From Algoriphagus sp. (GTDB lineage: Bacteria > Bacteroidota > Bacteroidia > Cytophagales > Cyclobacteriaceae): 35,071 nucleotides of DNA. A program made the position numbers and the translations under genes. The notes below the pieces were generated by a model. It saw nothing but the letters and a program-made list of their open reading frames with translations. It was not told where the DNA came from and made no database searches. The stretch's first letter is position 1; each line of letters begins with the position of its first letter. Positions 13,372-18,339 of the stretch are shown here, piece by piece. The stretch covers positions 1-35,071 of the forward strand of contig JALRIY010000002.1 of the NCBI GenBank assembly GCA_023255285.1, given 5' to 3'.

Positions 13372-13815
13372 TTAAAAAGGTAGATCATCGTCTCCCTCGT
13401 CAAGGGAAACTTGAGGGGCGGTTGCTACTGGGGCTGAATTTGCTGCAGGTGCTGCTGCAGGAGAATTACTTTGCATTCCATCTGGTTTGCCTCCAAGCAT
13501 GGTAAAACTCAAAACTCGGATTTTCATTCGCTTTCGATTTTGCCCTTGTTCATCGGTCCATTTATCTGATTTGATTTTTCCTTCGACGTAAATTTGTGAA
13601 CCTTTCTTTAAGTATTTCTCCGCGATTTTTGCTTGTTGGTCCCACAATTCTAAATCGTGCCATTCGGTTTGTTCTACTCTATTTCCAGATCTATCCTGGT
13701 ACGCTTCTGAGGTTGCAAGGCTGAGATTGGCTACAACTTTCTCCCCTTCGAGGTATTTCACTTCAGGGTCGGCACCAAGGTGACCTACTAAAATGACTTT
13801 ATTTACTCCTGCCAT
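13372..13815 (-). CDS. ssb: Single-stranded DNA-binding protein
   Basis: 147 aa; MAGVNKVILVGHLGADPEVKYLEGEKVVANLSLATSE, WHDLELWDQQAKIAEKYLKKGSQIYVEGKI; acidic C-terminal tip DEGDDDLPF. Confidence 0.97.
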   Translation of the reverse strand: MAGVNKVILVGHLGADPEVKYLEGEKVVANLSLATSEAYQDRSGNRVEQTEWHDLELWDQQAKIAEKYLKKGSQIYVEGKIKSDKWTDEQGQNRKRMKIRVLSFTMLGGKPDGMQSNSPAAAPAANSAPVATAPQVSLDEGDDDLPF

Positions 13816-17994: not shown

Positions 17995-18339
17995 TTAAAA
18001 GGGGAGTTTGTCCTCGTCTGAAGCTTCGTAAAAAGTATCTACATCAGGAGGGCCTACTGGCAGTCCTCCACCCTGGCTGCGGTCTACCTTGTAGGCTTTT
18101 ACCTCAGTGTACCAGCGCCCATTGTATTCCCTGCTTTCTACATCTATTCCAAGGGTAACTTGCTCCCCTACTTTCAAGCCAAACTGGTCTATTTTATCCC
18201 CCCAGATGGAAACACATACTTTTTTGGGATATTGACCTCCTGTTTCGACAATATATTCTTGCTTGCGCCAAGCATTTCCACTTTTTGAGCTCCCACTCAC
18301 TTCCGGTAATAGGGAGGTTACTTTTCCACTTAAATCCAT
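17995..18339 (-). CDS. DUF3127 domain protein (OB-fold-like, candidate ssDNA-binding) with SSB-like C-terminal tip
   Basis: 114 aa; MDLSGKVTSLLPEVSGSSKSGNAWRKQEYIVETGGQYPKKVCVSIWGDKIDQF and LGIDVESREYNGRWYTEVKAYKVD typical of DUF3127; C-terminus ASDEDKLPF. Confidence 0.9.
   Translation of the reverse strand: MDLSGKVTSLLPEVSGSSKSGNAWRKQEYIVETGGQYPKKVCVSIWGDKIDQFGLKVGEQVTLGIDVESREYNGRWYTEVKAYKVDRSQGGGLPVGPPDVDTFYEASDEDKLPF

Follow-up and report, generated by a model that had tools for sequence, protein, structure and literature searches.

The single-stranded DNA-binding protein SSB is regarded as near-universal in bacteria. Proteins that dock on its C-terminal tip (SSB-Ct) take up the terminal Phe in a buried site, where its carboxylate is anchored, and in E. 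coli the deletion of this one residue is lethal (PMC10164576). A second protein family, DUF3127 (PF11325), already carries an SSB name in phages: PHROGs places its phage members under phrog_4932, 'single strand DNA binding protein', and several phage records use that name for the DUF3127 protein. In our literature search DUF3127 was met only in a phage SSB annotation, and a mention of PF11325 was not found. The SSB label of the family in phages is known and is not new here, and the preliminary description of this DNA, which spoke of an 'undescribed' factor, was only partly right. What is new is the evidence that Bacteroidia have, as part of their core gene set, an SSB-like protein with a tip, and that this protein is kept where the tip of the canonical SSB, or the SSB itself, is lost.

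A small OB-fold protein with an SSB-like tip

The window, by which we mean the whole stretch of 35,071 nucleotides of Algoriphagus sp. that was analysed, holds the genes of both proteins, with the following features:

13372..13815, minus strand: canonical SSB gene, 147 aa, in a mutY-ssb-gldE cluster (PF00436, 113 bits; gene order)
13375..13401, minus strand: SSB-Ct tip of this SSB, DEGDDDLPF (sequence)
17995..18339, minus strand: DUF3127 (PF11325) gene, proposed SSB-like protein, 114 aa (PF11325 and phrog_4932 matches)
18076..18339, minus strand: predicted OB barrel, residues 1-88 (AlphaFold pLDDT; best PDB matches in Foldseek are SSBs and PriB)
18022..18075, minus strand: variable, predicted disordered linker, residues 89-106 (pLDDT about 50; no conserved linker positions)
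17998..18021, minus strand: SSB-Ct-like acidic tip SDEDKLPF, residues 107-114, ending at the C-terminal Phe (sequence and homologue conservation)

The window SSB ends ...SLDEGDDDLPF, and the DUF3127 protein ends ...YEASDEDKLPF. In profile searches the latter matches PF11325 with an E value of 4e-31 (107 bits), while phrog_4932 spans residues 1-114, tip included (E 3e-19); its nearest named relatives, with identities of up to 97%, are mostly labelled Algoriphagus. A six-frame scan of the window's own genome, a 2.6-Mb draft that is 81% complete, located [DE]-x-L-P-F-stop at 15 sites, at which only SSB and DUF3127 lie in gene-sized frames, the other frames measuring at most 47 aa. The same genome also encodes a second, tail-less SSB of 115 aa that ends KKPKEK (contig C500, L231:1986-2330, plus strand), so that a tail-less SSB, a tipped SSB and DUF3127 co-occur there.

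Conservation of the tip

Homologues were collected from named genomes and from genomes sampled across the phylum, yielding 180 DUF3127 proteins; a first iterated HMM had pulled in SSBs through the shared tail, and a set filtered by loci was used instead. The C-terminus reads LPF in 148 of the 180 proteins and [LIVMA]PF in 172, and the tip is present in 26 of 28 sampled families. As a control, the same loci supplied 1,310 further frames with a minimum length of 120 aa, among which none ends in [LIVMA]PF and three end in PF. In an alignment of 79 sequences, identity in the body drops below 20%, and the only columns conserved at 90% or more are G5, G58, P113 and F114. Positions -4 and -5 are acidic in 80-84%, and the linker is unconserved. 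Among 77 Cytophagales-type copies, the tip is written with all six Leu codons, all four Pro codons and both Phe codons, and this free synonymous use implies that the residues are conserved rather than the DNA. The preliminary description had drawn attention to an acidic LPF tip like that of SSB, and had taken its conservation among homologues as one point on which the proposal would stand or fall. The sequence, the genome scan and the homologue counts bear out the tip itself, and its conservation holds as well.

In three families (f23, f25 and f28), LPF has become IPF or VPF in both DUF3127 and SSB (L132 with L166, L135 with L170 and L192 with L173 are examples), which suggests that the docking pockets may have changed too. 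These parallel shifts bear on the reading that the shared LPF is a coincidence or another C-terminal signal, for instance one for protein turnover, unrelated to SSB partners. The loss of the tip in family f13 speaks for such a reading; it is set against an acidic-hydrophobic-P-F motif at the exact C-terminus throughout the phylum, with free codon choice and no occurrence among the 1,310 controls, against the joint shifts from L to I or V, and against the retention of the tip in phage copies. We consider this reading, coincidence or other signal, extremely improbable.

The eight proteins that lack [LIVMA]PF comprise two that end in PPF or QPF, two from family f13, three tail-less paralogues and one half of a frameshifted gene. 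In family f13 (L185, L190) DUF3127 ends VDDE or EDEA, without PF, whereas the SSBs of the same genomes keep DDLPF. Short, tail-less DUF3127 paralogues (L197, L198, L199, L366) were seen three times in genome G395, once in G352 and once in G408, in which no canonical SSB was detected; these are possibly mobile or division-of-labour copies. In G077 (L202), a frameshift that could be an assembly error splits DUF3127 into two frames, the second of which still ends DELPF.

Fold and relatedness to SSB

The SSB-like OB body that had been proposed from the sequence is supported by predicted structures and by profile comparison. AlphaFold models the window protein as an OB barrel, in which most of residues 1-88 have pLDDT values of about 93-96, followed by a disordered tail, with predicted strands at residues 2-10, 14-17, 23-33, 40-46, 60-72 and 75-87. 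In Foldseek, the best PDB matches of this model are bacterial SSBs and PriB, which also account for most of the matches listed. A second model, made for the DUF3127 protein of a genome of family f6 in which no canonical SSB was found (see below), is likewise a confident OB barrel, and the best 50 PDB matches listed for it are all SSBs.

At the level of sequence profiles, hhalign aligns DUF3127 with SSB over 103 collinear columns with a probability of 97% (P 1.8e-11) when tails are included, and gives a weak signal (P 9e-4, probability 22%) for the cores alone, with tails and linkers removed. The first match of the DUF3127 profile among PDB sequences is the D. radiodurans SSB (E 0.003). Every one of the 79 aligned members matches the phrog_4932 SSB profile, and 41 of them also match the phrog_44 SSB profile. 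PF00436 finds no match in the window protein at E values up to 1 and gives weak matches in relatives only (0.06, for example). The preliminary term 'paralogue' of SSB is plausible in view of the remote profile similarity, yet PF00436 itself does not recognize the protein; common ancestry of the two families is likely, and is not proven by sequence.

The fold also bears on a narrower role, in which DUF3127 would be a PriB-like primosome factor or a recombination-specific one, serving a single pathway (replication restart or phage-type recombination) through one or two SSB partners, without a general SSB function. PriB stands among the best Foldseek matches of the window protein, and an artificial fusion of PriB with the SSB tail shows improved ssDNA binding and has a stimulatory effect on PriA (PMC8509808). 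Against this, PriB itself is tail-less (PMC8509808), and no PriB appears among the best 50 matches listed for the f6 model, all of which are SSBs.

Distribution, chromosomal setting and phage homologues

DUF3127 occurs in 223 of 396 genomes of the phylum sample and, as counted from the scan table, in 97 of 99 genomes of the window's own class, Bacteroidia. It is a core gene of this class and patchy outside it, being often absent from the other classes. Most Bacteroidia still keep a tipped canonical SSB, which is what a PriB-like factor of restricted function would lead one to expect. No repair operon was found around chromosomal DUF3127 genes, whose neighbours are varied housekeeping genes that differ between families: what we take to be a sigma factor gene and rng lie nearby in Algoriphagus relatives, and presumably a flavin-reductase-like gene and aat in other families. 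Two genomes outside f6 carry as their only detected SSB a tipless one, ending NPEDNE in G007 (L180) and GGSHTE in G059 (L183), together with a DUF3127 protein that ends DDLPF or EDLPF.

Phage copies have the tip as well. The DUF3127 proteins of all six annotated phage records end in LPF, and among the complete, non-identical copies in IMG/VR the tip is found in 33 of 38. Genes for RecT, Erf, exonuclease VIII, DnaA, NinG or a primase-helicase lie nearby in three of the six records.

A different reading would make DUF3127 a regulator or decoy that binds ssDNA weakly and whose tip competes with SSB for partners, restraining them away from ssDNA. A tip conserved though the body falls below 20% identity would fit this picture, and the tip alone would be enough for competition. 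The phage copies, however, lie among recombination and replication genes and are placed with SSBs by PHROGs, and SSBs are the best fold match. The f6 genomes described next, which keep DUF3127 in the absence of a detected canonical SSB, also argue against a decoy, since a mere competitor would have no rival there. A decoy thus seems very unlikely.

Loss of the SSB tip, tail or gene in family f6

Within family f6, the tip or the whole tail is missing from many canonical SSBs. The best SSB of genera g12, g43 and g48 stops at the barrel (...EILLLGGK) and has neither linker nor tip, whereas the DUF3127 protein there closes with DDLPF. In a sample of 80 genomes, 14 genomes from eight genera have a single SSB whose frame, with 117 aa or less, leaves no room for a tail, as read from the sequence in six of them and judged by frame length in the others. 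In further f6 SSBs the tail is present and its tip is decayed or absent (DSFED, SMDLDD, SLKNP, NKDSN, EHSEEI). All 56 chromosomal f6 DUF3127 copies read, by comparison, end D[DGN]LPF. The tip is absent from 27 of 38 best-scoring f6 SSBs versus 0 of 56 f6 DUF3127 proteins (Fisher 4e-15, with kinship ignored), a comparison of best-scoring genes rather than whole genomes, as a second SSB occurs in some of the genomes whose best one is tail-less. In two f6 loci (L296, L302) the tail-less SSB adjoins an HRDC-like protein and hisS. The f6 SSB and its gene order presumably resemble those of Weeksellaceae (Chryseobacterium and relatives), which we take as a lead only.

Six genomes of the 80-genome sample lack an SSB scoring over the PF00436 cut-off. 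A more sensitive SSB profile was built from 43 sequences, with which positives score 1e-28 to 1e-51. One of the six, G411, was rejected as an SSB-less case, as this profile found a divergent SSB with a tip. In the draft assemblies of the other five (G397, G400, G408, G409 and G425), neither PF00436 nor the 43-sequence profile detects a canonical SSB. DUF3127 is present in all five and is itself the best match of the SSB profile there. Completeness is 99% for G397, G408 and G409; G400 (79%) and G425 (93%) are weaker cases. The f6 genera without a detected SSB are g173, g184 and g185.

In G397 (1.96 Mb), an unfiltered search of 81% of the genome returned no SSB, the remaining 19% being covered by the profile searches only, and within the searched 81% DUF3127 is the sole tip-bearing frame longer than 50 aa. 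No ssb lies at the hisS locus or at the gldE-like gene of this genome, which are the sites of ssb in relatives. A 5-kb masked (N) stretch (G397:C1:75001-80000), directly beside DUF3127, could still hold an SSB. G397 retains homologues of PriA, RecQ and RecG; its RecG lacks two pocket arginines of the E. coli protein, and the pocket residues of RecG and RecQ are not clearly conserved.

A general role of DUF3127 in f6 is suggested by the loss of the canonical SSB there, and this counts against a PriB-like or recombination-specific factor, which we regard as unlikely overall.

Proposed role

Our preferred reading is that DUF3127 is a diverged protein of the SSB type which takes part in the docking network of SSB and which, within f6, probably replaces the tipped SSB. 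We hold it to be quite likely that the family consists of ssDNA-binding proteins with a working SSB-Ct and a general role, where ssDNA binding and partner docking are inferred. In the mechanism that we propose, the OB barrel would bind ssDNA, and the short disordered linker would extend the tip from the barrel. The terminal Phe of the acidic-(L/I/V)-P-F tip would then dock the same genome-maintenance partners as the SSB tip, in their SSB-Ct pockets, which agrees with the published needs of these pockets and with the lethality of the Phe deletion in E. coli (PMC10164576). Most Bacteroidia would have two docking hubs bound to ssDNA, the canonical SSB and, as the second, DUF3127. In f6 DUF3127 may by now serve as the principal SSB with a tip, since in that family the tip, the tail or even the gene of the canonical SSB is often gone. 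Taken by itself, such a takeover, in which DUF3127 would stand in for the tipped SSB, is an evenly balanced proposition.

Of the two relations to the SSB interactome suggested at the outset, competing for it or sharing it, competition is not favoured; sharing or takeover is better supported by f6, where SSB loses tip, tail or gene and DUF3127 keeps its tip. A broader version would make DUF3127 the second general SSB of Bacteroidia and the essential tip-bearing SSB of f6, with DNA coating by a tail-less SSB and partner docking by a tipped DUF3127 in some lineages, and DUF3127 as the only SSB in a few. This we advance tentatively, its chances lying slightly short of even.

If these proposals are true, the docking hub of SSB can be divided between two proteins or shifted to a second one. 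A DUF that almost all Bacteroidia have would gain a function, the phage copies would be explained, and natural cases would be at hand in which to ask for which SSB functions the tip must sit on the DNA-coating molecule itself.

Comparison with known systems

A close parallel is the bacterial SSB (PF00436, TIGR00621; E. coli SSB, B. subtilis SsbA), with which DUF3127 shares an OB barrel, a disordered linker, an acidic P-F tip and a collinear profile alignment. It differs in lacking a PF00436 match, in its shorter barrel (about 88 residues versus about 105) and in its low identity, 11-23% in the listed structural alignments. The phage SSBs of PHROG 4932 belong to the same family over the full length, tip included (79 of 79 members), and most phage copies bear the tip; their label, however, is a predicted phage function, which is carried over here to a gene of the chromosomal core of Bacteroidia and to genomes in which no canonical SSB was detected.

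PriB (primosomal replication protein N) is likewise a small OB protein structurally close to SSB. PriB has no SSB C-terminal tail (PMC8509808), whereas DUF3127 has a linker and a tip and is like a natural counterpart of the PriB-SSBc fusion. The SsbB and SsbC proteins of Gram-positive bacteria resemble DUF3127 in being second SSB-like proteins alongside a main one (PMC3128108, PMC5945547). They are closer paralogues of the main SSB (33-38% identity for SaSsbC), whereas DUF3127 is far more diverged. DUF3127 also differs from them in that, within f6, it is the second protein that bears the better-conserved tip.
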